In this document: one piece after another, positions 2,651-59,372 of the stretch
Position numbering within the stretch: position 1 is the stretch's first letter
Layout of the letters: every line of letters starts with the position of its first letter
From: Rhizoclosmatium globosum
Taxonomy: Eukaryota; Chytridiomycota; Chytridiomycetes; Chytridiales; Chytriomycetaceae
Reading direction: 5' to 3'
DNA length: 64,000 nucleotides
NCBI GenBank assembly: GCA_002104985.1
Contig: MCGO01000009.1
Span: forward strand, 248,001-312,000
Position numbers and translations under genes: made by a program
Notes under the pieces: model-generated
Told to the model about the DNA's origin: nothing
Database searches by the model: none
What the model saw: the letters and a program-made list of their open reading frames with translations, nothing else

Positions 2651-3240
2651 TCAAGCAGGTGGAAACAGTGGCAATTCTTCAGCCGGGCTACCGAGCCATT
2701 GTAACAATAAACTGCGAGTATAGTCAGGACGTTGCACGTGTGGCTCATCAATCATGTTGGTTTTAGTCATCTTATCTAAAGGCAAGGTTTTATCTAGGTC
2801 CGATTGTTGGTGAGACAGTTCGGCACTTGCGATAGACACAGCTTGTGAATTAATCCAATTCAAACATTCGTTCAAATCAAGAATTTCAGTGAATGTTGTA
2901 TTGGCATCGTTGGTGGGGAAGGCGTGGGAGTGAGTTGTACCATGCCATCACCGCCACTCATTTCGACTGCGAGCAATGTCGCAGCCTGTGCAGCATGTTT
3001 AGCTTTTCGGTCAGTTTTCAGCTTTGTTTGCGCATTACGACTTCTTGCTCTCTTTCTTAGGCTCCTGTTGTGAAAGTCAGTAAAGCCAGCGTTGCTATTA
3101 ACTTACAATAGATTTGCTTCAGGATATACACAGTGCAATTCTTTCATTTGACAACTGATACAGCCACTGAGTTCCTTGGAACATCCTTTCTTGTGAAATC
3201 GGCATTCAATACAAGGTTTGACGGAAAACTCTGAAGCCAT
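2651..3240 (-). CDS. Mini Zn2Cys6 zinc-cluster protein, copy A (intact cluster, frameshifted tail)
   Basis: Start ATG at 3238-3240. Exon 1 (3107-3240, 134 nt, phase 2) encodes a complete Gal4-type cluster, C-x2-C-x6-C-x6-C-x2-C-x6-C, at residues 10-37. The intron is 3065-3106 (42 nt, GTAAGT...CAACAG). Exon 2 runs in frame only to a TGA at 2872-2874, giving about 107 residues. Downstream in another frame lies a tail ending LLLQWLGSPAEELPLFPP (stop near 2651), homologous to the tail of copy B, so one base separates cluster and tail. There is no fungal-specific transcription factor (MHR) domain. The cluster should bind CGG-type DNA by family knowledge; with no effector domain, a competitor or scaffold role is inference. 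Convergent with the decayed factor. Confidence 0.72.
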
Positions 3241-3361
3241 GACTCTTGTTGTTACGATGAGAAAAGACAAGAGCTGCGCGTTTTCCGATTGATGTTTTGA
3301 GTGGCTGGTGCTCCCTGTTAAATACCAGTTCATCAGTCATCCGGGATTTTTAACCGAGGAA

Positions 3362-3378
3362 CGATCTCCTTGGAGATG
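3362..3378. promoter_or_regulatory. GGAGAT-type upstream element of mini gene copy A
   Basis: CGATCTCCTTGGAGATG is an imperfect palindrome about 122-138 bp upstream of the ATG at 3240. Related GGAGATC elements lie at comparable distance from the other four mini genes. That it is a functional site is inference. Confidence 0.35.
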
Positions 3379-3395
3379 TTGCATCTTCCGACCGA

Positions 3396-4252
3396 GTCCA
3401 ATCTTCATCACAGAGCGGCGAAAACTCAAAAGACATGAACAATGCCCTAAAAAAGTCGCATAACTTGTTAATTGCGAGTTTCTGAACACGGAGCAAGGAT
3501 GATTTGTATTGTCGGATCACTAAACCCGATAATTTGGGTTCGGGTCACAATTAGATTATTGGACCCTCGTGGGTTTTAATCGCATGCAAACAAATGAAAT
3601 CCGAAGCCCGGCGATTCCGTAAATACAGATGTTAACATTGTACAAAATTACTATCGGTAACACCTCCGACTGGATGGAGATGACGCAAGACCAAAGTCTA
3701 GGAGCGCTACAAACACTCATGATTTTGAATGGTGCACAGGACTTGAGGCGATCTGTCGGCAAATTAAATATGAGCACCATGGCGTTAACGCCGACGAAGA
3801 AATCCCTCCGATCTCCTATTCGGGACTAAGGAAATCCTTAAATCTCAAATTTTCAATGAAGATCTGTAACACCTGGAAAAATATGCAATTCAGAGCTCGA
3901 GTTCAGTTTGAGGTGTGTAAACTCGCGAATCGAGTCTACGACGCGAAGGTGAGCACTTCAGTTGCTTAAAAGGGGACAATAGAGGTGCGATCTTCAAATG
4001 ACGACTATGATTTGTTAAAGCTGATATTGGGTTCGGGTTTTTCTTGGGTTTTATTACCGCATACAACTTTTAAGAAAACTCGGAATAGACACATGTTCTC
4101 TGTCTCTTTGCTCGATTGGGTTTGAGAATAGAAATAACTGACGCTGAGAACTCATTTCAAGAGGAAGGAAAGGAAAACGATTGTGATATATCTTTTTTTC
4201 TGGTATAAAATCGAGTCCTCAATTCCGGACTGCGTCCTAGCAGTGTACCAAA
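3396..4252. other. Spacer between the tandem copies, no gene recognised
   Basis: The short frames here (for example 3629-3829) have no recognisable motif. CCGATCTCC with the flank TATTCGGGAC (3808-3825) matches, in reverse complement, a segment at 7799-7820, so the spacer carries a member of a dispersed repeat. Nothing else is supported. Confidence 0.5.
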
Positions 4253-4380
4253 AGGCGATGAAAGTTCTTTCGTTGGGTAAGGAGGAGTCTATTGAATGGA
4301 TCCGTGATGTTTTTTGGGGTTGTTGGTGATGGAGGTGAAGACTGAAGAGCTTTGAAGGTTGTTTGGAAAACACTTTGATA
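4253..4380 (+). pseudogene. Fragment of a zinc-cluster factor 3' end
   Basis: The nucleotide match to 2432-2580 covers only the region encoding the C-terminal MKVVSL...GLLGMEV...FWK block, already with stops and indels (GTTGGTGATGGAGG in place of GTTGGGGATGGAGG). It has no upstream coding sequence, so it is a passenger of the tandem duplication, not a gene. Confidence 0.65.
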
Positions 4381-4438
4381 ATACAACTTAATTTTATATA
4401 ATACACTTTTACTGAGCGGACCTGCGCACGCTGAACAT

Positions 4439-5041
4439 TTAAAAGGGCTGTTTCATATTATCAAAGGGTGGTAAGAGTGGCAACTCTTCCGTGGTGCTAA
4501 CCAGCCATTGCAATAGCAAATCCCTGCTATTCGCGGGATTATGCGCTCCTGGCTCAACGATTGCGTTGGTTTCTACGAGCTGATCTAACGCCTGGCTTGG
4601 GGGTTGATACATTTGTTGACCAGGAAGGTCGACACTTGCCTTTTGGATATCGACCCAATACAAGTATTCATTCAAATCAAGAACTTTCGTCGAAAGTGGT
4701 GTTAATGGCAAAGTTGTGGGACTTGACGACAAATAACAAGCATTCAAGGTTAAAGTATCGACTGTGAGCAGCGTCGGATCTTGTGCTGAAACTCTATGCT
4801 GATGGGCGGACTTCAGCTTTGTCTGAGAATTTCGCGGTCTTGTAATCTTTCGCAGACTATGGTTGTGAAAGTAAGCACATTTGAACAACGGTATCGATTA
4901 AGCTTACAGTAGATCTGCTTTTGGATACGCACAGTGCATTCCTTTTACCCGACAACTGATCCAACCACTGAGTTCCTTCGAACATCCTTTCTTGTGGGAG
5001 CGGCACTCAATACAAGGTTTTACAGATAACGCAGGACTCAT
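4439..5041 (-). CDS. Mini Zn2Cys6 protein, copy B (zinc ligand lost, full tail)
   Basis: Start ATG at 5039-5041. Exon 1 (4908-5041, 134 nt, phase 2), intron 4857-4907 (51 nt), exon 2 4439-4856, in one continuous frame of about 183 residues. The tail is intact and ends with DLLLQWLVSTTEELPLLPP and a short extension. In the zinc cluster the fourth cysteine codon TGT of copy A is TGG, so Cys becomes Trp (SGWISC instead of SGCISC). The other five cysteines and the basic KKGC segment are kept. A Zn2Cys6 cluster needs all six ligands, so DNA binding is probably impaired. This base substitution cannot be explained by an indel-type assembly error. With copy A it forms a pair in which each partner lacks what the other keeps. 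Confidence 0.75.
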
Positions 5042-5150
5042 TGATAGTCTATGGGGACAGAAAGCTATTCGGTTCCGTGAATCGAATGTTCTGAGTGGCT
5101 GGCATCCACTCCTTTATGAAGGCATTCGGCATCTTTTGTTGAGCGAAGAA

Positions 5151-5158
5151 CGATCTCC
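5151..5158. promoter_or_regulatory. GGAGAT-type upstream element of mini gene copy B
   Basis: CGATCTCC, about 110 bp upstream of the ATG at 5041, in the same GAAGAACGATCTCC context as in copy A. Functional role inferred only. Confidence 0.3.
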
Positions 5159-5185
5159 GTGGTGATGTGTGTCTCTGCCGTAATA

Positions 5186-6470
5186 TTTCGAGCAGTGCGC
5201 GCATTCGGTGTTCTATTCAAATTTTCACCGGGCCCGATTCAACTCTTCACTGCAGCGGATCCAGGGCCATCTAGGCCTCAAAAAACTAGGAAATAGTATA
5301 CAAGGCCTTGTTTCAACGAATGGTTTGGTCATTGATGTTGGGGACACCAGTTCAGTGTGATTGCAGTGATCTAATTCGTCTGCCTCGAAACATTTCTAGT
5401 GGCAAGATCGCAATTAGCACGAGATACCACCATTTCGGGTTTCGGGGCCAGGTTCGGGTAATAGATTTTAAGTAAGAACCATAAACGCAATTCCCAATTC
5501 GTCCAGAACCACCAGGCCACTTTGCTCTAACACTGTCTGCATTCAAAGAAAGAATACTTTCCTTATTGATACTAAAAGCCCAGAGGTGGATGGGAATATC
5601 GTTGTCAGGTATTCACTTGCAGGAATGACAGGAATAGACGAAAATGGTAGCTATGTGAAACTAAGGATGGCCTTGTCCCCGCTCTTCGTGGATGTTGAAA
5701 ATATATTTGCTTCCTACAACGAGACTGAATTGATCGATTGGTGTATGCCTTGGCCAAGTCCAAAATAGAATCGTTCAAAAGGGTTCAACAAAAAAGTTAA
5801 CTGTGCAGACTGTGCGTATTTTTCGTCATATTCTTTCCAATTTCTGTCTGAAGTGTCAAGCTCGTCCTGCTTCAGCTGCGAGTTTTCTTGAGTTGATCTC
5901 AGCGTCGGTGCCCTCTCCGACTAAGTGGAGATTACGGTCTCTCCATCAACAATGTTATTTCCAACCAAAGTCGTGCTTGGCAGCCTTGGCTTTGCAATAT
6001 TCTTTCTATGAGACAGTCCATTTCGTTCCGCATTTATCTGAACACTTCCCACCTACTTCATGGCTAAAAATTAATGCAATTCGGCGGTGGCCCAACGGTT
6101 TACTAACAGTATTCTGATTCAATATCCGTCTCTAGATTCAATCCGAAGTTATAAGAGAGAACGTCTTAACTGGTCGCGACACATTTCTTTGGAATATGGG
6201 CTTGCCCCGATCTCCAGCTTGGGCGGCTCCCGTACTTGCGTTTTGACTTGCGTGGTCATAAAACCGACTTGTTTTGTGGATCCGCTTTAAATTATGACAT
6301 TGCATTTGATATTAATGAATCATTTGAATGACGAGAGCAAAAGGTCAGAGTTTAGATAGGGTTTGGAATGTTCAGAGATCGGAGTACCCTTCTTGACCGC
6401 GGACTGGCCCTCCCAACGGAAACACCCGTCAACACATCCACAAATCTTTCTTTTACACAGATGTTTATTA
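5186..6470. other. Gene-poor stretch, nothing recognised
   Basis: Frames of 60-104 codons exist (5586-5768, 5803-6117, 6087-6290 on plus) but show no family motif and no supporting splice pattern. CCGATCTCC at 6207-6215 and GAGATCGGAG near 6375 belong to the dispersed GGAGATCGG elements described below. Confidence 0.45.
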
Positions 6471-6963
6471 TTATGGTGTATTTGTACAAAGAAACTCCTC
6501 CTTCATGACAGCGGGTGGAAGTAAAGGATATTTCTCGAACGGCACGCACAACCAGTGTTGAAGCAATGCAGTATTATCAGCAGTTTGTTGGTATGTATTC
6601 AGTGTATCCAGAAATGAGGACGTTTGCAGAGTTTGTAATGCTTGCAGATCAAGACACAAGTTGTGAAAAGGTGAGTCTGGCCAGTGAAGCAATGGCTGGC
6701 TTTCTGTTGACTTTGGAGAATGATCGAACCATTCGAAAGCGGGCTCGGCTGGCGAGGCAGGTTGCTTCCTTTGTTCACTGAGCAGATAAGTTAGCTGAGC
6801 AGTCTTCACCAATCAAGGCTGTAACTTACGTTGAGCTAGTGCAAGTATCTATGTAGACGCAGGTTATTCCTTTCACTTTGCATCCAGTGCATCCAGTCTT
6901 TTCTTTGGTGCATCCCTTCTTCTTGATGCGGCATTCTTCGCAGGATGTTCTCTTGACTTTCAT
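6471..6963 (-). CDS. Mini Zn2Cys6 zinc-cluster protein 3
   Basis: Start ATG at 6961-6963. Exon 1 (6830-6963) is again 134 nt and phase 2; intron 6778-6829 (52 nt, GTAAGT...CTCAG); exon 2 6471-6777. The protein is 146 aa in a clean frame. Residues 8-35 form the cluster (SCEECRIKKKGCTKE..., six Cys spaced 2-6-6-2-6). The tail is Leu/Gln/Ser-rich and carries LLQHWLCVPFEKYPLLPPA close to the C-terminus, the same signature as in the other mini proteins. No MHR domain, signal peptide or membrane segment. The first 20 residues are nearly identical to those of the mini gene at 58315-58716. Predicted nuclear DNA-binding protein; target unknown. Confidence 0.85.
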
Positions 6964-7092
6964 TGTTTGGCGTAGGTGGTATATGTTCGGCAAAGCCACG
7001 CCACTAAAAGAATTGTGAAATAGCTTTTGTCTCAAGTGGGGACGCCGCGGTTTTTTAAACAGTCTCGGTGAAAGAAGTGGAGATAGTGGGAA

Positions 7093-7101
7093 GGAGATCG
7101 G
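7093..7101. promoter_or_regulatory. GGAGATCGG upstream of mini gene 3
   Basis: Exact GGAGATCGG 130 bp upstream of the ATG at 6963. It contains a CGG triplet, the usual half-site of Zn2Cys6 proteins. Binding is hypothesis only. Confidence 0.35.
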
Positions 7102-7536
7102 ATATGGCCTTGTCTCACAACCCGAATCACCGGAGGCCGACTGAATACGCCAGCCATTCAAGAGGCATCATGCGGCAGTATAAATATTAATAGTGACTTT
7201 CATCCGGTACTAGCCAGACTGCTTACCAATCATAGTTTCTGGTTCGGAAATCTGCTGATTCAGTTAATATAACAGCCAACATCAAAAACGAAGCCCTGAT
7301 ACATGCAGATGGCACATATCTGTCGTTATAGCAAATCTTTGCGAATTTGATTGTCCTTTTCCATTGTTCGGCAACTGTTTCATGGGAGATTGGAGATAAA
7401 TTCGTGCTCCAATATCGATACATTCACATTCTGATCCTCGCACTCAATTCGAAAGAGTCCAACTGTCTTCATTGACATATTCCGGCGAGTCAGATGGCTC
7501 ATTTCCAGAGCAATTTGCTGACGTGCTTGGGTGTGT

Positions 7537-7680
7537 GGAGATCGGGCTATGGTGTAACGCCGTCGCAACTTCGGTTTCCCAACCTGGAGATCGGGAAACA
7601 GTGTAACTCTGTCGCCATTCAATGTTCCAGTTGGAGATCGGAACCGTTCCTCTCTTTGTATGAAGACTAGGAACCTCATA
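7537..7680. repeat. Three imperfect direct repeats of about 48 bp
   Basis: GGAGATCGG occurs at 7537, 7586 and 7633, that is 49 and 47 bp apart. In the first two units it is followed by a shared GTGTAAC...GTCGC segment. The third unit continues into a sequence that recurs at 7808-7850. The array underlies the repetitive minus-strand frame here and is not protein coding in my view. Confidence 0.6.
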
Positions 7681-9394
7681 CTCTAGTGATGGACTGAACT
7701 GACCGGGTTACGTACCCGCACTGCATGCGAGCTGCGCAAGTTGTATGCTTGAGAATCGTGGCATATCTCCAATTCAATTTTTTAAGGATTGCATTTGAGT
7801 CCCGAATAAGAGATCGGAGTCATTCCTCTGTTAATATGAAAGCTAGGACGTTTAAATTAAGCTGGTAAACTCAAATTCGTCGCATTTATGAGTTCATGAA
7901 ACCATTATCTCAAACTATTGAAAGAATATTGTCCAGAGTTTGGTGATCTGGCATCGACGGAGAACACAGAGATCGGAGATGCTTAAGTCCGCTCTCTTTC
8001 AGCCATTCTCGTTGGTTTAATCGTTATGTCCGTGTAGCTATCACTAACGTCAGGAAATGGTTGTTTCCTGTAGTGAAAAAGGGATGCAGTAGTTTAACTT
8101 TTTGAATTGATTAGTAGCACGTCAACCGGTGTTTTTTACATTGTGCAGACTACTGCATAGTATCAAGATTCAACATCATCAATTCCGTTTTCGTTTATTT
8201 AAACTGGTGTTTATTTTGGGTAAGTGTTCTGCAAGACACAACTGTAATAACCATTTGTCATCCAAATGGGCAGATCCTCGCACCAATCATTTGAATGATA
8301 AATCATCAATGGCTCGTAGTCGTTTCATTGTATTGCGAGTAAGAAGCGATTTAGTCTTTTCTGGACTTCGTGTTTGATTCAGCGTCAAGTTATTTCTTTC
8401 ACTGCTTTGTGTGCCTTCACATGCTTATGGCTCTCCATTGACGTTATATACTGGTTTCAAATCGCAGATGTGGTTGGTTTCTGCTTCAGCAAAGAAAATT
8501 ATGAGCTTATCTATGAGCCTCTTTCAGTCCAATATTCCATAAAGTAAAAATGCTTAACTACATTCAACCATGTTTCTGATGAACCAACTTCAAATTCTGT
8601 ATTCGTTAACGTTTCACATTCAATCTCGATAACATGACAGACATGTTCAAAAAGGGATATTAAATACCCAGTTAAAGAATATGTACTTTCACACGAAATC
8701 TCTTTCATCTCGAAATGATGACTGATGATACGTAGATTTAAAATCAACATCAGCCTTATTTAGCTTTGATTTTCAATCCTTTGCAAGATCATCAACCATA
8801 TGATTTAATCCACCATGTTATTCCAGTATACTTTCTAAATAAATGAGATAATTTCCACGAGAGCAGATTAAATTGGGCATTTGATTGCCCCCTTTTGGTC
8901 AAGGATTTAATCAAGGGCAAGGCTCAACAACATAGATCTCCATTCCGGAGATAAATCTCTAAGGATCTCTAAACTAAAAATTTCTAGGCTCCATTAACAA
9001 GAGCTAACGGTAGGCGTTTTCCATACGGGACGAAACACCGGTGAATTCGCAGCGTAGAGCACTCGGATTCCTTTTTTTACCAATGTTAATGTTTGAATGT
9101 GAGCATTTTCTTGACGTATCGGCTTCGTATTGTAGTGGACACCTCTTTAATGTCACTTCTTTACGTTAGCTAATAGAGTCTTTCTGAAATCTACCGTGTC
9201 GAACTGTAACCTCCTTTTTAAGGGTGATCTCTTCTTCACTAGGTTACACAGTTCAAACAAAAATCGGCCAAACCGGCCCGAGACCGACACGATTTTTTTT
9301 GCTATCCAGCCACCGGCAAGAACCAACCACAGAGGGAAAAAAAACAAAAAGGGGAGGAGGGAGATGTGGACCGCAAAAACAACGCTCAGAAAGA

Positions 9395-10425
9395 ATGCCC
9401 AAGATCTCAACCGTCCTTCCACACGTCCACGCTACCAAAGCTGTGTCCTGCGAGTCCTGCCGATTACACAAGAAGAAATGCACAAAAGAACGAGGCGGAT
9501 GTGAACGGTGCTTAGATAAGGGGCTTTGTTGCGTCTATATTGGGGTGGTGCCTGTACAAGCTGAACAAGGCGATAAATACCCGTCTCCACGAACGACGCC
9601 ACCAATGTCGTCGCAGCAGCAGGGTGTTAAGAAGGAGGATGGCGGGGATTGGCTTTGCTTGAATCCAAGTGGAAGTGATGTGCCGCCGGTTGAACAAGTC
9701 GATGCGCTTTGGAAACGGATTCATGCAATGTATAGTGGGAAGGGGGTGGATGTGTTCGGGATGTGGTTGCGAGTAGGGAAGGGGTGTTGTTGACGGGTGA
9801 CTTGTTGAATGTGTATGCGTCGATTCCGGATTTGTTTCTCGTGCATCCTAGGACGTTGGGAGAGCAAATGTGTAAAGTTCCGATTGGGCAGTGGTCTGTG
9901 GTGTTGGGAATGAATTTGCAGTTGTTGGGGTGTGCAAGTTATTTGAATCGGTCGAAACTGTTTTTGGCAACGAAAGGGCCTAGTTGGTTTAGGGATGTGG
10001 AGAAGGAGTGTGTTTTTGCGGCCGTTGAACAGTGTTTGGATGTTGCGATTGAAATCTGCGAGTTTTTGCGAATGGGTGGAATGTGGGTTGGGCGAGAGAA
10101 GGATGTGGAAGGGGCTGTGATGGAGGCACTCGTTGTGTTATGGTTTGTTTCTTGCAGGATGGATCGGGAATGGGTTGATGGTTTAGATGTTGTGTATGTG
10201 CGGAATAGGGCAAAGTTGTTGGTGGAATACTTGCGAATGTTGGGGACAGGCCGACAAGCAGTACAAGCAATGTGGGAGGAAATGAATGGAATGACATCTA
10301 CTGTCTGGCTGGATCGAGCAGTCGAGGTGGATGCACTGGAGGTATCACTACTTGGAATGGAAGTAGGCCCGGAAGGAAGACGAGTGCGAATTCGAGGGGA
10401 GGAACGATGGCATCTTTTATGTTAA
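9395..10425 (+). CDS. Zinc-cluster transcription factor with shortened middle
   Basis: ATG at 9395. Residues 18-45 hold the cluster (SCESCRLHKKKCTKE..., spacing 2-6-6-2-6). After a short linker the protein goes directly to the late part of the factor domain: a YLNRSKLFL segment, VVLWFVSCRMDREW and a final LLGMEV...EERW block, all matching the C-terminal halves of the factors at 26984, 29306 and 40905. The W-P-P motif, the RFLT/RRAR region and the LDVDPD segment of those paralogues are absent, so about 200 residues are missing. The frame changes near 9730-9776. A 47-nt GT...AG segment at exactly 9730-9776 would join both frames (phase 2 to phase 2), although it lacks a pyrimidine tract. Function as a factor is doubtful. 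Confidence 0.65.
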
Positions 10426-10490
10426 ATATCTTTAGAATATAGACTCGCTGTTTTTTATATTTATTTAGTTTCTTTCACTGAGTGGACACG

Positions 10491-14791: not shown

Positions 14792-14845
14792 AACACGGAT
14801 ACTTTATTTCTTTGTACTTATATGATCCCCCAATTAAATCAATCT

Positions 14846-17920: not shown

Positions 17921-17934
17921 GAGACAAAAACTTG

Positions 17935-29305: not shown

Positions 29306-31462
29306 ATGGCCAATGAAAAAGACCATAACCCCAAAATGCAAGTTCAAAAGCACTGGCTGACGACAGCGTGCACCGGATGCCGCCGCCTCAAACGCAAGTG
29401 CCAACTTAAGCCCGGATCGTCGGCTTGTGTTCACTGCGAAAAGCGGGGCCGGGCCGACACGTGCGATGCCCTGAATTTGGATGTTGCCCCGCCGCCAAAG
29501 AGCTGCGCCCGATGCATCAAATACCACAAAAAGTGTGTTCCAGGCGCATTTGGCTGTGTTTTGTGCATGGACCTGGGCCTCGAGTGCGCGGCATCGTCTC
29601 CAAAGCATCCGGAAAGGTAACCCTGAAAACCTGTCAAAGGCACCTTACTGACCAGACCACGCATCTGCCAGCCCTATCGCTGCTAAACTGGAACGGAGGA
29701 ATCTTTCGCAGTCGTCGGCAGAGTCGTCGCTGACACTGTCGACACCAGTTGAGCACTCTCGATATCTTGACAGCAGCGCTCAGACAGAAACTCGACAGCT
29801 GGAAGATACTGACCTTTTCCCCACTGTCGAAGACCAGTTCATGGTCATCAACTTCTTCAATTCGTCTCTTCCCAATGTTGCATACCTCACCATGAATATT
29901 CTGGATAAGGAGTCCATCATTTCTTCGTTCTTCAGTACAGCCCCTGCTCTTCGGTAACAAGTTGCTGATAAGAAATTTAATTTCTTACCTTTTCGTTCAA
30001 GGCTGGTTGTTTGCGCTATCGCAGCTTACTATGCAAACCCCCCACTTCCAGATATGATTTGCCATACGTATTATCAGCGAGCGCGGAAAGCTATCATGCT
30101 AGCTGCAGATACTGCCTCAATTTCTACGATACAAGCTTGTCTTGCCATATACAACTTTGCAATATGTATGTTGCCTTCAAATCGCCAATGATGGCTCTAA
30201 TTTCTTAAAATTAAGGGAGGGGCCACCCTCTTGTGGCGCAAACATTCTTTCGATTGGCTCTTGATATGGCCGTAGCTCTTAAACTGTACGTCGATCCAGA
30301 CGATTCCCTTGGCTGGCGCAGTATAACTTGACGGAGAAGGACAAAGATTCGCGACGACGATTATTTATGGTTTGCTGTTATTTGCAAAAACGTGAGAGTG
30401 TCTTCTTCGCTTTCTCTCTGTTCTAACTGGCCTCGAAGTTGACCAAAGCGTATCGCCAAAGGCGTATAATCTTGACATATCACTTGACGGATTAAAGCCG
30501 TTCACGGGCTCACAGAATGCTGTGGCCAGAGTAAAGATCTACGATCTTCTGTGTAAAATCAAGACGCATCATTTGCAAATACCTGAATCAGTCCATCACA
30601 TCATGTTCTCGGATTCAACAATTCAACTTCAGTCAGACCTGATGGCTCTCCATCACAATGTATCAAATAGCCTATTACTCAGTTCAGATGCTGAAAGCCT
30701 CTCGATTGCCGATTGCGATCGCTTCGTGAATGAAATTGTTTCTCATGAGTCTCATCACGAAACGTATTTCTATCTGGCGGCCAATTTCAATACCCTCATG
30801 TCGATTTCTCTTCTCCAGAGACCAAGAATGTATCTCTCCCATTTATCAACCTGCCGCCCATCGCGCCTCACTACCGAGTCAGTTTTAATCATCAGCAATG
30901 CAATTCGTTTATGCTCGGGTCGGCTCATCGCATCACATACTTGCTCGTATTCTTAACAGACGTACTGAATGGAAATATCCTCTCATTTCCCAAGAAAAGC
31001 GAAACTATTGTAAGCCTACGTTTCTCGGATTCTATTGCTTTGAAGCCATGACTGTATTTTGGTTCGTTTACTGTCGCATGGACCCCACTGGCTTCCTGAA
31101 TCGGTACCATTACGAGGGATCGGAGAGATCTGAAGGCGAGGCTGGAGTTGGTCGCGAAAACTGTCAAGGAAATGAAAGGAGTTGAGATTATGGCGCCTGT
31201 TGTTGTGTATGTTGAAGCAATGTGGAGTGAGATTTTGGCAAAGTGGAGTGAGGAAGCTCCAGTTGATGTTGAAATTGTAGGTGGGGAAATGGTTTTAGGA
31301 AACAAGGCTGAATTCATGAAAGAAGCTGGAACCAAAGAGTCGTGGGGATTCTTGGGGCTGCTTGGAATGGAAGTTGCAGGCGGTTTAAGATGGGTTGGAA
31401 AGGGTGAGGATTCTTGGAGACAGTTTTGGCAGGTGCATGGATATGTGGAGCGAGAGGAATAA
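29306..31462 (+). CDS. Zn2Cys6 transcription factor with two tandem zinc clusters
   Basis: ATG at 29306. In one uninterrupted exon there are two complete six-cysteine clusters. The first is at Cys 22, 25, 32, 41, 44, 53 (spacing 2-6-8-2-8) and the second at Cys 67, 70, 77, 84, 87, 94 (2-6-6-2-6), separated by 13 residues (DALNLDVAPPPKS). The rest is the usual factor domain: FMVINFFNSSLPNVAYLT, intron about 29954-30000, VVCAIAAYYANPP, YYQRARKAIM, RLALDMAVALKLYVDPDDS, RRRLFMVCCYLQK, SLLQRPRMYL, FWFVYCRMDP and FLGLLGMEVAGGLRWV...WRQFW. Frame breaks near 30320, 30940 and 31110 are probably indels. It lies 240 bp behind its paralogue in the same direction. Confidence 0.85.
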
Positions 31463-40904: not shown

Positions 40905-42802
40905 ATGAATCGCCCTTATCCGTCACGAGCGACTTCTTGCCAAGAGTGTCAAAAACGAAAGAAAGGCTGCACGAGGGAAGTGTCAGGATGTTCGGGCTGC
41001 CGTTCCAAAGGAATCCGATGCATTTACCCTCGCCACACTCAAAGTAGTGAGCTCACTCCCGAAAGCCGAACTGCACAAAACGTTCCAAATACTTCTAATT
41101 GGAATGATGATGGACTTCTCCAGTGGGATCCATCCGCTGATGCTGTTGGGCCAATTGCGGTGGCATGCCCAATAACACCAGCTTTCGCTCTGACGCAAGC
41201 GATGACAATGTTAGAAGCGCCAATACTGGATAAGGATGATCTTGATATGGCCTTGGAAGATCCAGATCTAATGCCAACGTTTGAAGATTTTGAGTGTGTG
41301 CTCACATTCATGACAACGAATCCACGTGCTGGAACTTTGATGGTACTAATGAATGTGAACCAGTTCCTGTTAACTTTCTTTACGCAACCGGCGTCGTTGA
41401 GGTGTTGTGCTACACTGTTGATATTACTCACCAGTGTTATCTAAAAGCTGTAAACCAGACTTGTCATAGGCGCGATCGCAGCATGTTATACCAGATCAGC
41501 TATATCAGATGATACAGTTCTCTGGTTCTTCAAGCGTGCCAGAAAAGCAGTGATTCTTGCTGCCGACGACCTTCGTTGGCAACTGCAAAAGCGTACTATT
41601 GGATATTTATTTTCGCATGGATCATGAAAAAATATGAGCTTGGATTCCCGTTTTTGAAGATGGCTGTTGGATTGGTGTCTGTGTTGAGATTGGATGTTGA
41701 TCCAGACTATCTTCCAGACCTTGTGGACATAGTGAAGCTGAGAAAGAGGAACGGAGGCGGCTTTTTTGGGCGTTGTGTATCGCTTCATGGTGTAAGCACT
41801 TTCAATTTGGCAGAGCCAAAACTAAATATCAACTACACGTAGTTGCATTGAGTCGATCGTTAGATTCAACATTAATTTATCTGTCCTCTGCCGCCGTGAA
41901 CCCCTTGGGCCCGTAGAAGGCGTCTTCAAAAGTGTTCCTTCGTGCAAACCATTTTGCGATGTACTATGTCTCATCGTAGATATCAAACGGCATTATGCCA
42001 AAATTCCAGTGTCTCTCGACGACATTATTACATCTCCAGAATTACTGCACTTGCAAATGCGCTTTGCAATCATTCAATCCAGTATACCTTCTGAACAAAT
42101 GATGTCGATGGAATCCCCTCAAGTATTTGCGTCCACACTTCTCGCAAATGATAACATATCAGACGTGTATAGTCCTTGGATGAATGCCAATCTTTTTGCA
42201 TGTGTTACGTTGTTAAATCGGTCCAAGTTATATCTTACAGCGTTGAGTAGTTATCACCCAACTCTTTTACCTTCATCAACATGCGACATTATTATCGGAG
42301 CTGTAAAGCAGTCTTCCTCGCTATTTGTGGGGCAGTAAGCTTGGTGGGTGTATTATCGAACATGAATGATTACGATCGATTTCGAGTTACAACACATGCG
42401 CCGTTTTGGTACCCGTTGTTTGAGATATCGATCACGGCATGGTTTATGACTTGTCGAATGAGCGAAGAGTGGAAACAGATTGTCGAGATTGATTTGAATA
42501 TGTTGATTGACTCTATCCAATCGCTGACCAAATTCGTGGAGATAACCATGAGAGAAGAGCTCACTGTCGAGCCAATTGGTTATTTTATGAGAGTAATGCT
42601 CAGAGAAATGAGAAAAGATTTGCAAGATGGCACAATAGAAACAGCGGATCAACTCGCTTTAACGGGAATGAGTACTACCAGCGATGGAAACTACTATGGA
42701 TATTTGGGATTGTTAGGCGTTGAAGTGGGACAAGGATTATGCTGGAAAGGTCGAAACGAAGATACGTGGAGGGAATTTTGGAAACAACAAGGAATGGTGT
42801 GA
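40905..42802 (+). CDS. Zn2Cys6 transcription factor, same subfamily as the mini genes
   Basis: ATG at 40905. The cluster at residues 12-39 (SCQECQKRKKGCTREVSGCS..., spacing 2-6-6-2-6) is closest in type to the mini proteins. A short linker has DDGLLQWDPSADAVGP, a diverged form of the W-P-P signature, then LEDPDLMPTFEDF (also in the decayed factor at 571-2580). The MHR region follows after an intron at about 41402-41469: FFKRARKAVILA, LRLDVDPDYLPD, RRRLFWALCI, IKRHYAKIPVSLDDIITSP, TLLNRSKLYLT, TAWFMTCRM and LGLLGVEVGQGLCWKGR...WREFW. Frame breaks near 41575, 41735 and 42330 look like indels. Convergent with the phospholipase gene (104 bp between stops). Confidence 0.82.
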
Positions 42803-43545: not shown

Positions 43546-43797
43546 TTCGTTGATGATTTTGAATTGGGCATTAATTGGGCTGGGTGGCTACAAGAATGAG
43601 CGCGTGCAAAAATGCACGCACCCTCGTATATTTCAAATGATTAAGATTTTTGCAAAGCAGCAATTTAGATACTCTGTTCTGTTGCCAATCAGTCGCAAAC
43701 AAGTGCAGCCACCAACATAAATTGTTTCATCATCAGCTCATTTACTTGATTTATCCATCTATTCACGATTTAAACATGAAATTTAAAGTAAATAGAC
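43546..43797. other. Interval between two minus-strand genes
   Basis: About 250 bp, AT-rich, phospholipase promoter side. No gene seen. Confidence 0.4.
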
Positions 43798-48728: not shown

Positions 48729-48974
48729 TGTATTGTAGGTTAGAACATGTTATTCCCCTTGATTTTGGTTCTGACGACACTTTGTTTCACACTCTAAGCC
48801 TTGAGCTCTGTTTGTAGCCTCCCCAAACAATCCGATCCGCACTATTTGCTTTCTCATTTCTTCGGTTGTCCGCTGTGCTCACACATTCTTGAATTGCCTG
48901 TTATTCCTCCATCCAATACAGTCCAACACTTCCCTCCATTACGTACTTCGACCACGAGCTGTAGTCTTTCATTT

Positions 48975-49785: not shown

Positions 49786-50403
49786 TGGGAGAAATTGGTT
49801 CACCTGTTTCACATTCATCACCCTCAAAACATAGAGAGACACATGGCCATTCACCCTTATTTCTTTATAGTATGGACTCTAACGGAGTGCATTATGCCTC
49901 CTGATTTAAATTCTAAAGAAACTGTTTTGCATACGAAACCTCTGCTCCAGTAGTGGAGAATCAGAAAGAAGTGCACAAATGAGGGAGGAATATTGAAAAC
50001 TTTCTTGGCAGCTATCGCACACAGAACCTGAGAATATTTTTGACATTAATCACGATGGAATGCGTTGGCGTCATTCTTACGTTATTCAAGTTGTCCTTAC
50101 AAGCGTAAAGAGTCAGATCCTTTACTTTCGTAAACTCTCCATTCAAAGTTCTAACTATATTAAGATGGAAAATTCACAGTCGTCCTCAAAGAGCCTGAAG
50201 CTTCCCCAACCAGTATTCGTCTGCCGAGACTCAACTACACAACCACAAGTTTATTTCACGTGTATTGTATTCATATAAGAACGACGGGGAATAATATCAA
50301 TAAAAAAACTGGACTACAAACGGGTGTAAAGACAAAAAATCACATCACAACTATCCCATCCCCCAACACTAATGCATGATGAATAAATCCCAATAGCACT
50401 CAT
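49786..50403. other. Intergenic between two minus-strand genes
   Basis: About 620 bp with no recognisable gene; only short frames without motifs. Confidence 0.45.
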
Positions 50404-52177: not shown

Positions 52178-52287
52178 TTGTTTTTTGAGGTTGTTTTGAG
52201 TAAGAGGGGTTGTGTGTGTGTGTTGTGTGTGTGTTTTGTGTGGGTGAAAGAAGAAAATTGGATAGTGAAAAAAGTACTTTGAAAACG
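52178..52287. promoter_or_regulatory. Divergent promoter between PP2A and RhoGEF with a TG-rich tract
   Basis: 110 bp between the ATGs at 52177 (minus) and 52288 (plus). It contains a TG-rich run at about 52210-52240 (GTTGTGTGTGTGTGTTGTGT). No TATA box seen. Promoter function inferred from gene orientation. Confidence 0.45.
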
Positions 52288-54416
52288 ATGGATGTTGGCT
52301 CGCTTCCCGATGACATGATTGGTTTGTAGTCAGTCACAGTGGCAAGAAGGAGAAGAGGCTTACGTAAGCGGCGCTAGATCCGCCGCTTCTTCGGTCGCCG
52401 TTGTACTCGGCCGATGCGATGGTGTTGCTTACTCCCTTTCTGATTGATGCGATATCGGGGACACTGCCAGATGTACGTGCTTGTTTTTGTTTTGTTTTGT
52501 TTTGTTAGAAGTTGGTGTAGCTGAATTGGGGCTCGTTGTAGGATGCCGATGACTGGAACTCGGTCACTATCAACTGGATTGCTCCTATTACTCCGGCTCG
52601 GAGGTGTGTTCCGTTACCTTAAGCATTCTATACCACAATCTTTCTACTGGAAGAGACTTGCTGTGAAGGGATGGAGGAGGTGATGTGATGGGGTTTGCGG
52701 ACTGGCGGTGGAGCAGCACAACCTCATCGAATAGGAGTTCTGCCGCAGAACGCATCAACAACACGTATCGTACAAAGCATTTTAGATCCTCTAGTACCTC
52801 CCTTCGGTCGTTCCTTCCACTTGAACACTCAAACCAGCCTCATTTCATTCCACTCACCACACCCAACTCCATTTCCACTCCACACCCCCCGCACACAATC
52901 AGAGCAAAGACCCATACTACTACATCACACACGATCCATCCGGCTCGAAACGCGGTTACGCCGTCCTCGAAATTCTAACTACCGAAGAAACATATTACCA
53001 TGAACTCACTATCGTTAAGGAAGTCATTCAACGAAACTCAGGGAATTAAATATTCTCTCGGATTATGCTATGAAGACTATTTTTGAAGGGATGGGTGAGT
53101 CTTGAGTTGTTAGTGTGGGAGGTCAATTAGTTAAGAATAGTGAGTGATGCGAGCAACAAGAAACCGCAGGAAACATGCTTTCACAATTGCGTTGGAAAGA
53201 TCTGGAAAAATGAATTGGAAACGATAACGACGCAATATAGAAGGGTAGGATGAAATATACTAACTCCCATCACTGAATCAAGATGAATTGCATGAATTAC
53301 ATACCAAAATGCTGGCAAGTATGAAAGAAGTGTGTGACGATCAATCATGGTCTCCTACAGATTCCAAAATTTCAGAAGTCTTCCTCGAAAACGTGAGCAA
53401 CAGTTGTTTGACTTTACAAAGTATTAACAATGCAAACAATAGTCTCACAAACTTGAGAAATTGTACGTCATATACATTGACAACAGAGAACGTTCAGAAA
53501 AGACAATCATGGACTGCCAAAACAAGGACGAAAACTTCAAAAACTTTCTCGCTCAATGTACAAAGTCGCGTGAAACAAAGTTCACTGAACTGAAAGAACT
53601 GCTTTTGAAACCTTTCCAGCGTCTGACGAGATACCCTCTCCTCCTCCGAGGTAAAATTCTCCATTCCCCCAACACTTCACATCAAAAAAAAACAAACTCA
53701 ACCTATCCTCCCATTCACACAGAACTCAACAAACAAACCCCTGACACCCACGCCGAAAAACCAATCATCCTCCAAGCAATCACAGCAATGGAAAACATTG
53801 CCCACTCCGTCGACGAAAAAATGGGCCAAATCAAATCAACAGTCCTCCTCTTCCAAGCACAACGCGAAACAAAAGACTGTCCCGCAACAATCATTGCCAA
53901 CAATCGTAAATGCCTGCTCACGATTGACGCGATGGATAACCGCGCTGTTCGGAATAAGCTGTTTTTGTGTAATGATTTGATTATGGTTACGACGTATGAG
54001 AAGACGGGTGGATTTGGGAGTGCGTATTTCAGACCGTTGGCGGCGGCGGAGGGGGGTATTGGAGGTGGTGCTGGAGGGAGTGCTGGGAATATTAGACCGA
54101 GTTATAAGTTTTTGCGGTTTATTGATTTGTTGGATATTGAGGATGTTGAGGATTTGGCTGGTAATTATTGTCTTTTCTGGGTGTTTTGGGTTGTTTGGTG
54201 CTAACCATCGCGACAGATGATATTCTCAAGATCAAGTTGCGGACACCTGGTCCTAATAGTTTGAGTACATTGACCAGTTTGAATGGAAGCCCGCTGCCTA
54301 TGGTGTTGGACTTCAAGATTGACAGTCAAGCTGCTGGAAATGCAAAGAACAGGTTCACCTTTGTACAGACTTTCCAAAATGAAATCAAGCTTGCGAGAAA
54401 ACATGCTCAAAAGTGA
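52288..54416 (+). CDS. DH-PH Rho guanine-nucleotide exchange factor
   Basis: Likely start MDVGSLPDDMI at 52288, then short exons (AALDPPLLRSPLYSADAMVL, DADDWNSVTINWIAPITPAR) and a Pro/Ser/Thr-rich stretch. The DH domain begins YAVLEILTTEETYYHELTIV near 52950, the CR1 signature, and includes the CR3 signature LLLKPFQRLTRYPLLLR near 53610-53650. An intron separates it from the last DH helix (ITAMENIAHSVDEKMGQIKS). A PH domain follows (KCLLTIDAMDNRAVRNKLFL, LIMVTTYEK, a Gly/Ala-rich loop, RPSYKFLRFIDLLDIEDVED, RFTFVQTFQNEIKLARK). It ends at 54416. Exchanges GDP for GTP on Rho-family GTPases at membranes. Frame breaks near 52930, 53040 and 53465. Divergent from PP2A. Confidence 0.85.
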
Positions 54417-54580
54417 GGGGATTGCTGTGGATTGCGAGTTTCTCCTCCTTTTACGTCTATTTACGTTGAGTTGAATCCATGTGTTTCTCTTGTATTTTGT
54501 CATTAGTGTAGTTGAATAGATAAGTTGTCAAATGTACCCTCAAAAGCGTATCACATTATTTATTAGGTAATTATAACAAC

Positions 54581-56175
54581 CTAAGACGACACCAATAGCT
54601 CCGATGAAGTTTTATCCCCCAGCTCCACATTCTCACTCACCTGTGACACAGGCGGTGCTGTCAAACTCCAAAACTTTCTAAACGCAACCCCAAGCATCAA
54701 AGAAACGAAAAACACCCCAATATCCATCCAAAACGTTGCTCTATATCCATCTGAAATATCTTCCACATTCTTACTCAACCCGGTAATCGTATCCGCAACC
54801 GTAAACTCCACCGCAATCCCGATTCCACTCCCCAACTGCACGACCGTATTCAACATACCGCCCGCAAAAGATCGATGCTCCTCACTCACAGACGTTATCA
54901 ACAGGATATTGAAAAAGTTGAATACAACGTCGAACCCAAGAACAATTGTACAGAGCGCAGGGAAGGCTAGAGCCCAGTACGTGATTGATGCGCGCACGAA
55001 AGAGAACAGAATAGCGGCTACGATCATGGAGCAGTGGCCAAAGATGAGGAAGGGGAGTGGGTTTGGGTAACGTGTCGCTAGGTACCCTGTTGCTGATGCG
55101 GTTAAGAATCCGACAACCATCATGGGGATAAGGTGGACTGCTGTCATGACGGTTGAGTACTTGTATACATTGAGTAGCGAGAGGTTTGCGAAGATGGCGA
55201 AACCGTTGAATCTGTGTAGAAATAGATTAGAAGTTATCTTGGGGATATTCAGTGACGTACGCGAAAAAGACCAGAAACGTCATGATAATTATCAACGTCG
55301 TTTGTGGGTTGAAGAAAGTCTTTGGAATCAATGGAACAGGGGCCTTTTGCTCCCACCAAACGAAAACTACCATTCCAATGATTGACAAAATCAACGTGGA
55401 CAGAATTTCGGCAGAAGCCCATCCATCAATAGATCCCGCAGAAATAGCATAAATAAACATGATCAAAGAGGCTGTCGAAACCAATGCTCCAAAGTAATCA
55501 ATCTTGGCAGCTTGATCCCATAGATTCCCTTCATAAGCCTTATCTTTCGGCAGTACAATAATGCCGGCAGCCATTGTAAGAAACGTCAGTCCCGCATACA
55601 AAAGAACACAGCTCTCCACCCAGCCGCCTGTCCAATAGTTCCACTAATGAAAAGCCCACTAATGAATCCAAGCGGCGATGCAGCTCCAAACTGCGAAAGC
55701 GCAATGTTCCGTTCAGCAGGATCAGAGAACAGGTCGGTAATCGCACCAACAGCAGATGGGATGTTGGCAGCAGCGCCAATGCCTTGTAATGCTCTTCCGA
55801 TGATCAAATGTTTGACGGACGGTGCGAATCTGGTGAATCGAGTGAATCAGCCTCAGTTGATTACAAATAACGTCCAATAGGAGTTTGAAACCAAACATAC
55901 CCACAGTAGATTGACGTTATCGTCAACCATCCCATCCCAAACACAACTCCCTTCTTCTTCCCAAACAAGTCAGTTAGCCTGCCAAACAGGAGGAGGAGGC
56001 CTCCAAAGGTAAGGTTGTACGCCGACAGGATCCATTGAGCTTCACTTGGTGATGGATTCAGGGATTCGGAGATGATGGGAAGGATGATGGTGAGTCCCAG
56101 GAAAACGTCGAGAAACTGGGCTGAACAGAGAACAAGGTGGCAGAGACGGCGGTTGGGCTGCTTTTCTGATGGCAT
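54581..56175 (-). CDS. Major facilitator transporter, DHA2-like drug/H+ antiporter type
   Basis: ATG at 56173-56175 (MPSEKQPNRRLCHLVL). Helix 1 contains FLDVFLGLTIILPII. The loop 2-3 motif A is GRLTDLFGKKKG and helix 4 has IIGRALQGIGAAANIPSAVG. Motif C in helix 5 is PLGFISGLFISGTIGQAAGW. Intron near 55830-55895, another near 55215-55258. About 14 helices in total: FLTMAAGIIVLP, FGALVSTASLIMFIYAISAG, STLILSIIGMVVFVWW, LIPMMVVGFLTASATGYLA and a final FWMDIGVFFVSLMLGVAF. The acidic C-terminus ends SSELLVSS. Substrate cannot be read from sequence. One frame break near 55620 where VFFC changes frame. Divergent from the nucleoside transporter. Confidence 0.85.
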
Positions 56176-56422
56176 TTTTTGAAAGATGTTGTTGTCCAAT
56201 GGGAGAACTTGTCTGGCTTGATTTCGAATAATTAATTATGAGTAATCGTCTTATTGCATGGAAGGTAGAACACGCAGGCATTCGCTCGTTCCTTGGGCAT
56301 CGGTGGTCCAACAAGAAAAGCGGGTTATTTTTGGTATTTCCCGTAGAATATGTCAGCGATGCACTAGTTCTTTTAATAGTTCAATTCAACATACGTTTTT
56401 TCTTTGAACCAAACCGTGAAAA
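56176..56422. promoter_or_regulatory. Divergent promoter region, MFS / CNT transporters
   Basis: 247 bp shared 5' region between two transporter genes on opposite strands. No specific element recognised; co-regulation is possible but only inferred from layout. Confidence 0.4.
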
Positions 56423-58250
56423 ATGGCTATTCCACACAACAAAGCAGTCATTGACTTGAACCCAACCAACGGCCTTGGCGACACCATCGAAGCCCAATCC
56501 AAGGAAAAGAAGAAGTTTGGAAAGAGAGATGCCAAAACTGCCCTCTACCATTTGGCCATTTGGCTGCCACTGACTGCCTTCATCATCGCGGTCATCATCA
56601 AAGGTCAAGGGAAGCCTGGATACGTGTTTGCAATTGTTGTCTACGTTCTCATCACGCTGAGATTCTTGGCCCAGCACATTTCTATGAGCCAACTTATTTA
56701 CGGTATGTTTGTTTCGGACCTGTGTTCTAGAAGGAAACTAAAAATAGCGTCCAATGAAATTTAGAGCCACTTGGGAGAGCTTGGAACCTCACTATCGGAG
56801 CTGGAGTTAATGCGGTTCCAGAGAAATTCCAGCTTCCAATTGCTGGTGTTGTTTACTTGGCGATTCTCCTTGCCGTCGCGTGCGGATCTCCTATCACTGA
56901 AACTGGAAATATCGGACAAAGACTCCAGTCCATTGCAGGAATTATTCTTATGACAGCTTTACTCTACGGCTTCTCAAATGATAGAAAGAACATTCCTTGG
57001 GGAACGGTCCTTTCTGGTTTCTACATCCAATACATCATCGCGATTTTCATTCTCAAGACTCAGATTGGTGTCGACATCTTCTGGTTCTTGTCTAACTTGA
57101 TTACTACCTTCTTGGAGGAGTCGACAGCTGGTCTTGAATTTGTTCTTGGAGCCAAGGCGAACAACCCGTTTAAATACACATTTGCTGTGGCTGTTCTTCC
57201 TGCGATTCTATTCTTTGTTTCTTTCATTTCAATCGTCTACTATATTGGTGGTATGCAGTACATTGTTGGAAAGTTTGCTTGGATCATGGTTCGCTTGATG
57301 GGTACCTCTGGAGCTGAGTCTGTTGTGGCTGCTGCTTCTCCTTTCGTTGGACAAGGAGAGTCAGCACTTCTTGTTAAGCCCTTCGTTGAGTTTATGACTC
57401 GATCTGAAATCCACTCCGCCATGGTCTCCGGTTTCGCGACTATTTCTGGATCCGTTTTGATTGCTTACATCAATTGTAGGATATTCTTTTCTTTGATATT
57501 TGCTTAACCTTTCATGTTATAGACACTGGTAACAACCCATCGTCCACTTCTACCTTATTGGCTTCTTGCTTGATGTCTGTTCCCTGCTCGCTTCTTGTCT
57601 CCAAGATCATTTACCCAGAGACTGAAGAATCAATCACCAAGGGTACCGTTAAAGTCCCAGAAACCGATGAAAAAGATGCAAACTTACTTGACGCTGCTTC
57701 CAAGGGAGCCGCTATCGGTGTTCAACTCTGTCTTCTTATCACTGGTTCCCTTTTGGCCATCATTTCACTGTATCAATGTGCCAACGATATTGTCGCTTGG
57801 GCCTTCAACATGGTCGGCATTGCCAACTGGATTGACTCCTCCCAACCAGTTTCCATCCAGCTTCTCCTTTCATACATTTTTTGGCCAGTCGCTGTTTGCC
57901 TTGGTATTCCAGTTGGCGATGCGCGCAAGTCTGCCGAATTTATGGCAACCAAATTGGTGGTGAACGAGTTTGTTGCATACGCGAATTTGCACGACTATGC
58001 CTTCCAGGTTAACGCTACAGCAGACGGATCTTATCCATTGAACGGAGCTTTCCCACTTCGTACTGTCCGCTTGATGAGTTTTGCACTTTGCGGGTTCGCG
58101 AATATTGGTTCAATTGGAATTCAGACCTCAATTCTGGGAGTTATTGCTCCTTCTCGTAGAAAGGATTTAGCTGAATTGGCTCTGTCAGCCATGTTGACTG
58201 GAGCTTTTTCTACTTGGATCTCAACTGCCGTAGCTGGTGCCATTTTGTGA
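56423..58250 (+). CDS. Concentrative nucleoside transporter (SLC28/CNT family)
   Basis: Three exons with clean joins: 56423-56702, 56765-57475, 57523-58250; 572 aa with no frame problems. N-terminal cytosolic tail, then TM segments starting IWLPLTAFIIAVIIK. Core CNT motifs: IQYIIAIFILKTQIG, FWFLSNLITTFLEESTAGLE, LMGTSGAESVVAAASPFVGQ with GESALLVKPF (nucleoside site), MVSGFATISGSVLIAYI, KLVVNEFVAYANL (Na+/nucleoside region) and FALCGFANIGSIGIQTSILG, the family signature. About 10-11 helices. Imports nucleosides at the plasma membrane by coupling to Na+ or H+. The intact frame shows that frame breaks in neighbours are not universal. Confidence 0.95.
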
Positions 58251-58314
58251 TGTCTCGCAACGAAAATTAATTAAAGAGGGCATAATTTTTATATATGTAA
58301 ATTACCAATGTTGC

Positions 58315-58716
58315 TCAAGAAGGTGGGAATAACGGATATCGGGTTGAAGGTACTGCTAACCATTGAGTAAGCAAATAATTTACGTTTGATTTTTCCTGAG
58401 GGATATTTGCCAAGGGCTGTAGGGGCTGCAGTGGACATAATAACTGCGGCGATAGCTGGTGATTCGGGAGTGGCTGATCTAGGAATGCTGTTTGATTGAG
58501 CCAGTTAAGAAGATACATATCGTTCGCGTTTTCTTCCTGGGTTGTCCTGGATACGATGGCTGTTAGTGATTCCTGAACATCAGGTAAAACTTGCCTTCTA
58601 TCAGAATAATAACATGTAATACCCTTCATTCGACATCCTGTGCAGCCATTAAGTTCCTTGGTGCATCCCTTCTTTTTGATGCGACATTCCTCACAGGATG
58701 TTCGTTTGACAGTCAT
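58315..58716 (-). CDS. Mini Zn2Cys6 zinc-cluster protein 4 (single exon)
   Basis: ATG at 58714-58716, 133 aa without intron. The first 20 residues (MTVKRTSCEECRIKKKGCTK) are almost those of mini gene 3 at 6471-6963, with the cluster at Cys 8, 11, 18, 25, 28, 35. The tail is Leu/Gln-rich and ends TQWLAVPSTRYPLFPPS, the shared C-terminal signature, right at the stop. No MHR domain. The missing intron and the near-identical cluster suggest recent dispersal, possibly through a cDNA copy, although no poly-A remnant is visible. The complete frame argues that small size is the real state and not the result of decay. Confidence 0.85.
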   Translation of the reverse strand: MTVKRTSCEECRIKKKGCTKELNGCTGCRMKGITCYYSDRRQVLPDVQESLTAIVSRTTQEENANDMYLLNWLNQTAFLDQPLPNHQLSPQLLCPLQPLQPLANIPQEKSNVNYLLTQWLAVPSTRYPLFPPS

Positions 58717-58836
58717 AGTTTGTGTGCAGATTTTTCCCTTGCGCAGTTACGCAAAGGATGAGCGATTATATATTCCAAGAGTGGTGGTAAAGTCGCTGTT
58801 CTTGAATTCCAGCTGAACGCTTGAGGAGACACAAGT

Positions 58837-58848
58837 TTGGAGATTCCG
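58837..58848. promoter_or_regulatory. GGAGAT-type upstream element of mini gene 4
   Basis: TTGGAGATTCCG about 121-132 bp upstream of the ATG at 58716. The following bases (GTGTTCTTCCG) resemble the segment after GGAGAT upstream of copy A (GTTGCATCTTCCG). Inferred only. Confidence 0.3.
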
Positions 58849-59007
58849 TGTTCTTCCGCCAAATTGTTACAGCCCAAATTTATAGTCTAATTCGTTTTTA
58901 CTTCATTTGAGTTGTTGGTTATAAACCACATCACAAAAGCTTCTTCCTTTTGAATTTGTCTGCAAAATCATGGAGATCACTGTATAGAGATCGTCTCTCC
59001 TCATCCT

Positions 59008-59016
59008 CCGATCTCC
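59008..59016. promoter_or_regulatory. CCGATCTCC upstream of mini gene 5
   Basis: Exact inverse of GGAGATCGG, 69-77 bp upstream of the ATG at 59085. Role inferred. Confidence 0.3.
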
Positions 59017-59084
59017 AAGTCACGAAAAGTATCGCAAGAACACAATCTGATCCAGGACTCCATCAAACGGCGGTTGCCATTTCA

Positions 59085-59372
59085 ATGAGTGAAGTCAAGT
59101 GGAGCCGGAAAGGTTGTCGCGAATGCAGGGCCAAGAAGAAAGGTTGTTCGAGGGAGTTGGATGGCTGTGTTAGTTGCAAAAGCAAGGGCGTTGAATGTGT
59201 TTATCTGATGCTGGAAAACAAGTAAGTCGCTTTAGTTTCTTGATCCTATCCTATTGCTAAAACACTACCCTACAGTGCAAACGTGGCTGAACGAGCACCT
59301 CAATTAATACAACCGTCTGGAAACTCAAATAACAAGCGCGTCACCGATATCGCCAATTTGCTGCTCTTTTGA
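59085..59372 (+). CDS. Mini Zn2Cys6 zinc-cluster protein 5 (shortest, 77 aa)
   Basis: Exon 1 59085-59221 (137 nt, phase 2), intron 59222-59275 (54 nt, GTAAGT...CTACAG), exon 2 59276-59372. Cluster at Cys 11, 14, 21, 28, 31, 38 (GCRECRAKKKGCSRELDGCV). The tail is 30 residues and ends RVTDIANLLLF, so it stops at the point where the other members have LLxQWL. The exon 1 length and phase match the other mini genes closely (134 nt, phase 2). ATG 59085 is chosen because it places the cluster at the N-terminus as in the paralogues; the frame is open further upstream. Confidence 0.75.

Follow-up and report, generated by a model that had tools for sequence, protein, structure and literature searches.

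Short zinc-cluster genes with a conserved tail motif in Rhizoclosmatium globosum: candidate small regulators probably derived from long Zn2Cys6 factors

Zn2Cys6 factors form the largest known family of regulators in fungi, and the long, Gal4-type members combine a six-cysteine cluster (PF00172) with a factor domain (PF04082). Here we describe five short genes, minis 1 to 5 (m1-m5), in a 64-kb stretch of the genome of the aquatic chytrid Rhizoclosmatium globosum (C410:248001-312000, hereafter the window; the assembly has 56.9 Mb in 420 contigs). The minis have the same six-cysteine head with a basic segment as the long factors, and their first-intron position is common to part of the long paralogues of this genome, whereas they have no factor domain (middle homology region), are 77-183 amino acids long as read, and end in four of the five cases with the motif LLxxWLxxPxxxxPLxPP (WPP). 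In the reading that we favour, and hold to be rather probable, the minis are genuine short genes that Rhizoclosmatium maintains and that derive from the front of a long Zn2Cys6 factor; the cluster head and a docking WPP would together make a small regulator. The open frames of m3-m5, the constraint on cluster and WPP, and a close relative of the m1 tail in a second species suggest that at least two of the minis are real, maintained genes.

Five short genes and their constraint

The original prediction placed five short loci in the window, and all five were found where it had placed them (Table 1). The family that it saw in them stands as five loci, but not as five equal members: m3 and m4, the two with clean frames, are intact and carry WPP, m5 is open without WPP, and m1 and m2 are damaged. 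A six-cysteine cluster had been described for all five. The canonical spacing C-x2-C-x6-C-x6-C-x2-C-x6-C was found in four (m1, m3, m4 and m5), but it is lost in m2, where the fourth cysteine (Cys4) is replaced by tryptophan. In Gal4 the fourth cysteine bridges both zincs, and because the replacement hits this residue the m2 cluster is probably dead. The Pfam Zn_clus profile (PF00172) matched all five minis at E 0.1, and its cut-off of 21 bits was exceeded by m1 (26.2), m5 (24.8) and m4 (23.1). Lysines are present in m3, m4 and m5 at the positions that contact DNA in Gal4.

The WPP pattern, which was derived from the same mini sequences that it then counted, occurred four times in the window and five times in a looser form, and in neither form in 60 first-order Markov shuffles. 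The four tails in which it had been reported all contain it, but strictly only in three, since in m2 a T replaces the first P. In m1 the cluster exon is intact and the frame breaks between about 2875 and 2900, with the WPP in another frame; with acceptors that preserve the tail frame, the reading stops at 100-108 amino acids.

Cluster and WPP appear to evolve as constrained protein. In both blocks nonsynonymous divergence (dN, or as a proportion pN) is well below synonymous divergence (dS, pS), which was a test suggested for the minis at the outset. Between m1 and m2, pS and pN are 0.76 and 0.10 in the WPP, and dS and dN are 0.63 and 0.10 in the cluster. Between m3 and m4 the cluster has a dS of 3.1, which is near saturation, and a dN of 0.15, and the WPP a dS of 1.58 and a dN of 0.38. 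Third codon positions account for 20 of 30 differences between m1 and m2 and for 28 of 48 between m3 and m4 (P 2e-4 and 3e-4, respectively, against one third).

A second haplotype of m4 and m5 is present on contig C23 (m4: L032). Between the m4 haplotypes the cluster part differs at one of 120 positions, synonymously, and the WPP end at none of 63, while the linker has 8 changes in 210 positions together with one 3-nt and one 9-nt indel, both in-frame. The two genes are divergent neighbours with a common spacer of 368 bp (window 58717-59084), which is the fastest-changing of the stretches compared (25 changes in 364 positions, 16 gap columns); cluster plus WPP of m4 differ from it with a Fisher P of 4e-4. 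The m4 linker is looser than both ends, and its 10 changes in the codon alignment carry no more than that. The m5 exons differ at 2 of 137 and 2 of 97 positions, without indels.

One of the minis is already a public gene model. Our model of m3 is letter-identical to BCR33DRAFT_781686 (P0001, 146 amino acids), which was also the only match to m4 (one of two candidates in the database search). When a profile of six mini sequences was searched, three of 1905 candidates matched, namely BCR33DRAFT_781686, BCR33DRAFT_781685 and HDU99_006990. The second of these (P0002, 149 amino acids) is m2 read from an internal methionine, with the cluster omitted; it has the same intron, which supports the intron of m2. 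The third (P0003), from Rhizoclosmatium hyalinum, matches the m1 tail on either side of the frame break (67/73 and 52/62 identical) and runs along this tail through the WPP unbroken. The two matched pieces of m1 are in different frames in R. globosum and in one protein in R. hyalinum.

Table 1. The minis and associated features, in window coordinates
Feature	Position	Strand	Anatomy
Mini 1 (m1)	2651..3240	-	Exon 1 (cluster, six Cys) 3107-3240; short intron, acceptor uncertain; WPP 2657-2710
Mini 2 (m2)	4439..5041	-	Exon 1 4908-5041, 51-nt intron, exon 2 4439-4856; 183-aa open frame; WPP 4466-4519
Mini 3 (m3)	6471..6963	-	Exon 1 6830-6963, 52-nt intron, exon 2 6471-6777; 146 aa; six Cys; WPP 6513-6566; intact
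Mini 4 (m4)	58315..58716	-	Single exon, no intron needed; 133 aa; six Cys; WPP 58321-58374; intact
Mini 5 (m5)	59085..59372	+	Exon 1 59085-59221, 54-nt intron, exon 2 59276-59372; 77 aa; six Cys; no WPP; open frame
Decayed long relative	640..2580	+	WPP 754-807, factor-domain pieces 879-2577 in changing frames; convergent with mini 1
Stretch convergent with mini 2	4250..4400	+	Aligns with 3' end of 640-2580 gene

Relation to the long factors

A tblastn search with the factor domain of locus L053 gave no match on the whole minus strand of the window, where m1-m4 are located, nor on the plus strand beyond 42790, where m5 is located. Splicing of the mini exons to a downstream factor domain is therefore unlikely. 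Of 28 distinct cluster sequences, 24 have a factor domain at most 2.5 kb downstream, and the four without are m1, m3, m4 and m5; this set was defined by fixed spacing and a motif filter on fetched sequences (the window and loci L031-L071) rather than on the whole genome. Outside it are m2, which has lost Cys4, and the window clusters at 9449, 27017, 29369 and 29504, which are outside the filter and all have factor-domain matches.

In addition, 90 of the 92 cluster matches in the genome were paired against the factor-domain matches on the contigs concerned, leaving out the m3 tail and one weak match on C124; 53 were paired and 37 were not. Seven of the unpaired matches are mini entries (two being second haplotypes), and eight have a factor domain by the 2.5-kb test (C16, C366, C363:259410, C346:275859, C410:257434, C201, C223:364244 and C44:81475). 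As the other 22 are not all accounted for, the claim that these are the only minis in the genome was dropped, and further minis may be present elsewhere.

The first exons of m1, m2, m3 and m5 are 134, 134, 134 and 137 nt long and end with phase-2 GTAAG donors, just as originally described, and the introns that follow are short (in m1 42 nt or more). Exon length and phase are nevertheless no hallmark of the minis, being common to long paralogues. A donor-like GT in phase 2, exactly 23 nt past the last cysteine, is found in 10 of the 24 factor-domain-bearing clusters, as well as in m1, m5 and m2 (with its 134-nt exon); in m3 the donor is 29 nt past the last cysteine. Because this donor position is common to 10 of the 24, the fixed first exon of the minis is most simply seen as inherited from long factors. 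With a phase-2 GTAAG or GTGAG donor a stop codon follows at once inside the intron, because of which retention of the first intron would yield a cluster-only peptide from long and mini genes alike. Such a case has been described for AN1569 of Aspergillus nidulans, in which first-intron retention gives a premature stop and a cluster-only peptide (PMC8396895, seen in part). Judged from that part of the paper, AN1569 and the minis are alike in having the protein reduced to the Zn2Cys6 head, but the AN1569 product is an RNA form of a full-length gene, whereas the minis are genes in their own right, with a second exon and a conserved tail motif of their own (m5 without the motif) (PMC8396895).

Alignment of the DNA of m1 and m2 (3700-2400 with 5500-4200) gave 643 identical columns of 989 and extends past both minis, reaching at either locus the 3' end of a long gene that converges with the mini. 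Because the alignment continues into this gene, the duplicated unit was probably a long gene together with a mini, which would make the mini form older than the split of m1 and m2.

The proposal that the minis correspond to the first part of the long factors is supported. They have the same cluster type and the first-intron position of some long paralogues, and in two damaged copies WPP is found immediately ahead of the factor domain. On these features the minis appear to be derived from the front half of long factors. One of the copies is the decayed gene at 640-2580, which had been described as having WPP between cluster and factor domain; WPP does precede the factor-domain pieces, but no cluster was found upstream, where a leucine-rich frame ends at 474. 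The other is a damaged copy at C410:226.7 kb (L074), with WPP directly before the factor-domain head; no cluster was found in L074, in which another frame ends near base 446.

Regulator, competitor or relic

We propose that a long Zn2Cys6 factor would have lost its factor domain, leaving the cluster, the first intron, the linker and WPP. This would probably have happened before m1 and m2 split, and these two would now be damaged former members in this genome. The cluster of each mini would bind CGG-type sites, and WPP, a short stretch with a weak helix prediction in an arm whose fold is predicted at low confidence, would dock one partner. The mini would then be a small regulator that occupies sites, free of any control that a factor domain would exert.

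Several observations weigh against this proposal. The Zn_clus score of m3, an intact mini, is below the cut-off (19.4 bits, with m2 at 15.3), and the loss of Cys4 in m2 and the frame break in m1 have been tolerated in this genome. The cluster and WPP blocks were selected for conservation, which in itself biases dN downwards. Of the 10 changes in the m4 linker 4 are synonymous and 6 are not, 5 residues are replaced, and the pN/pS is 0.46. The AlphaFold2 models of m3 and of P0012, a clusterless protein treated below, are both of low confidence at the WPP; the helix in which this stretch is placed in m3 (113-121) would speak for the proposal, but the quality of the model is too poor for structural evidence. 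No database protein within the length range of m4 matched m4 itself, and mini relatives beyond R. globosum were found in one other species only. HDU99_006990 of that species likely ends as a mini, but this is unproven, the record being partial, from a contig of 1,485 bp, with the cluster outside what is seen.

According to the original prediction the minis would compete with the long paralogues, occupying CGG sites or forming heterodimers and thereby blocking them. The conserved cluster without a factor domain and the presence of long paralogues of the same cluster type on the same contig agree with this, and it is the main rival to our reading, yet we consider it unlikely. No dimerisation segment turned up in the minis, although no dedicated search for one was made, and among the sequences examined none of the long proteins combined a cluster with a recognisable WPP. 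Furthermore, pure competition leaves the conserved WPP end unexplained. A protein that only competed for sites could do without it, and we therefore lean towards a docking-dependent regulator. The term microprotein, which had been applied to the minis, does not hold in its strict sense. Such proteins keep an interaction domain and lose DNA binding, as in the Id and LITTLE ZIPPER types. These are likewise short derivatives of long transcription factors that arose by duplication and domain loss, but the minis keep the DNA-binding cluster and lose the effector part, and no dimerisation domain was identified in them.

It would also be conceivable that the minis are 5' fragments of long factors on their way out, on a contig with many broken copies. 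The damage in m1 and m2 fits such decay, as do the frame-broken long copies on C410 (L036, L039 and L074) and a locus at C410:219032 (L077), which has lost Cys4, shows no factor-domain head over the 0.8 kb or so that was read and looks like a plain relic. Decay would, however, account poorly for the synonymous-rich divergence of cluster and WPP, the clean frames of m3 and m4, the restriction of indels between the m4 haplotypes to in-frame ones, and the related unbroken tail in R. hyalinum. We thus regard decay of the whole group, the second rival, as improbable, and the earlier statement that the short size is not merely decay is borne out by the constrained blocks and the two clean minis.

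The WPP motif outside the minis and the wider context

A hidden Markov model (HMM) of the m1-m4 motifs alone found the WPP of the 640-2580 gene (17.0 bits, E 0.003) and that of L074 (E 0.03). A diverged WPP claimed at 41107 is not supported, since the 40905 frame scores -1.2 bits with this model. With an HMM of nine motifs, 20 known places scored at least 23 bits (all nine in the model) and the next best 10.4, and none of the matches below these places was recognisable as a cluster-to-factor linker. The idea that long factors with a cluster generally carry WPP in their linker was therefore rejected, since the motif was seen neither in the linkers read nor by HMM.

With the L074 factor as query, 33 of 7304 database candidates matched; they belong to Rhizoclosmatium, Siphonaria, Obelidium and Chytriomyces. 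Two of the proteins, P0012 of R. globosum and P0010 of R. hyalinum (a partial record), start with a WPP-like arm, to which a factor domain is joined, and have no cluster; their frames are unbroken. At the P0012 locus (L075) no cluster was found, including about 0.9 kb upstream, and the N-terminal stretch of P0012 has matches, starting at the arm, in additional loci on C346 and C223. Neither protein can be taken as a proven WPP homologue: in a hold-out, an HMM built from the remaining six WPP sequences gave them -2.0 (P0010) and -3.0 bits (P0012), and the minis do not rank with an HMM of P0010 and P0012. Because neither model recovers the other group, the arm motif may be convergent with WPP, and we take the resemblance as a lead. 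The AlphaFold2 model of P0012 (33 sequences, mean predicted local distance difference test score (pLDDT) 82.7) has a confident factor domain, but the arm, with a helix at 20-28, has a pLDDT under 50 and packing of the WPP is unreadable. Annotated clusterless proteins were not accepted at face value, as P0016 (BCR33DRAFT_734893) starts after a good cluster upstream in L076 (C410:244 kb); in view of this case, public clusterless models in this genome need checking.

These proteins raise the idea of a two-part system, in which minis with cluster and WPP would give DNA binding and clusterless proteins with WPP and factor domain the regulatory half, the two being joined by WPP or a shared partner. 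It is favoured by WPP preceding the factor domain in the two clusterless copies on C410, by the unbroken frames of P0012 and P0010, and by FarD of Aspergillus niger (817 amino acids), a clusterless factor-domain protein that is a required regulator, with the mechanism given as unknown (PMC10512302, seen in part). FarD resembles P0012 and P0010 in that a factor domain without a cluster can function, but it is large, and the part of the account seen has no paired mini (PMC10512302). With both C410 copies damaged, the hold-out failed and the P0012 arm unreadable, we find the two-part system quite doubtful, and the wider and boldest notion, that in Rhizoclosmatium a Gal4-type factor has been divided between two classes of genes, cluster plus WPP minis and clusterless factor-domain proteins with WPP or a WPP-like arm, acting as a regulator in trans, more doubtful still.

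Some further features of the surroundings were observed. C410:183000-362000 is a local hot spot with 18 zinc-cluster places of this family in about 180 kb, the five minis included, and several of the copies are frame-broken. Within the window, two different cluster motifs about 40 bases apart are found in one frame upstream of one factor domain (29369-29587), and the end of a leucine-rich-repeat-like frame (1-474) directly precedes the decayed long factor. On other contigs, L002, L003, L004, L005, L007 and L013 (C409, C44, C223, C371, C235 and C1) have two or three tandem zinc clusters in the space of a few hundred bases, and the 1-2 kb downstream shows no factor domain of the mini-related family; they are multi-cluster proteins of another type, and some look like haplotype pairs (C44/C223). 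Four similar long factors (frames of 661-665 amino acids) are in tandem at C124:560103-567519 with a spacing of about 2.43 kb, and the two that were read have an enlarged loop between cysteines 3 and 4.

A literature search, mostly without subscription papers, gave no paper that combines Rhizoclosmatium with Zn2Cys6 or microprotein with Zn2Cys6. Separate fungal genes encoding only a cluster and a short selected motif were likewise absent from this literature, in which subscription papers are few and which is weak evidence of novelty, and a search by term of the main text of two R. globosum papers returned nothing on mini genes. RNA sequencing of the life stages of R. globosum JEL800, with reads mapped to the JEL800 genome, has been published (eLife 2022, PMC8887899, seen in part).

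If our reading is true, the minis would be a natural minimal regulator in a model chytrid for which RNA sequencing data exist. They would make it possible to test how a family of factors can lose domains and still persist, and WPP would be a concrete docking candidate that can be tested.

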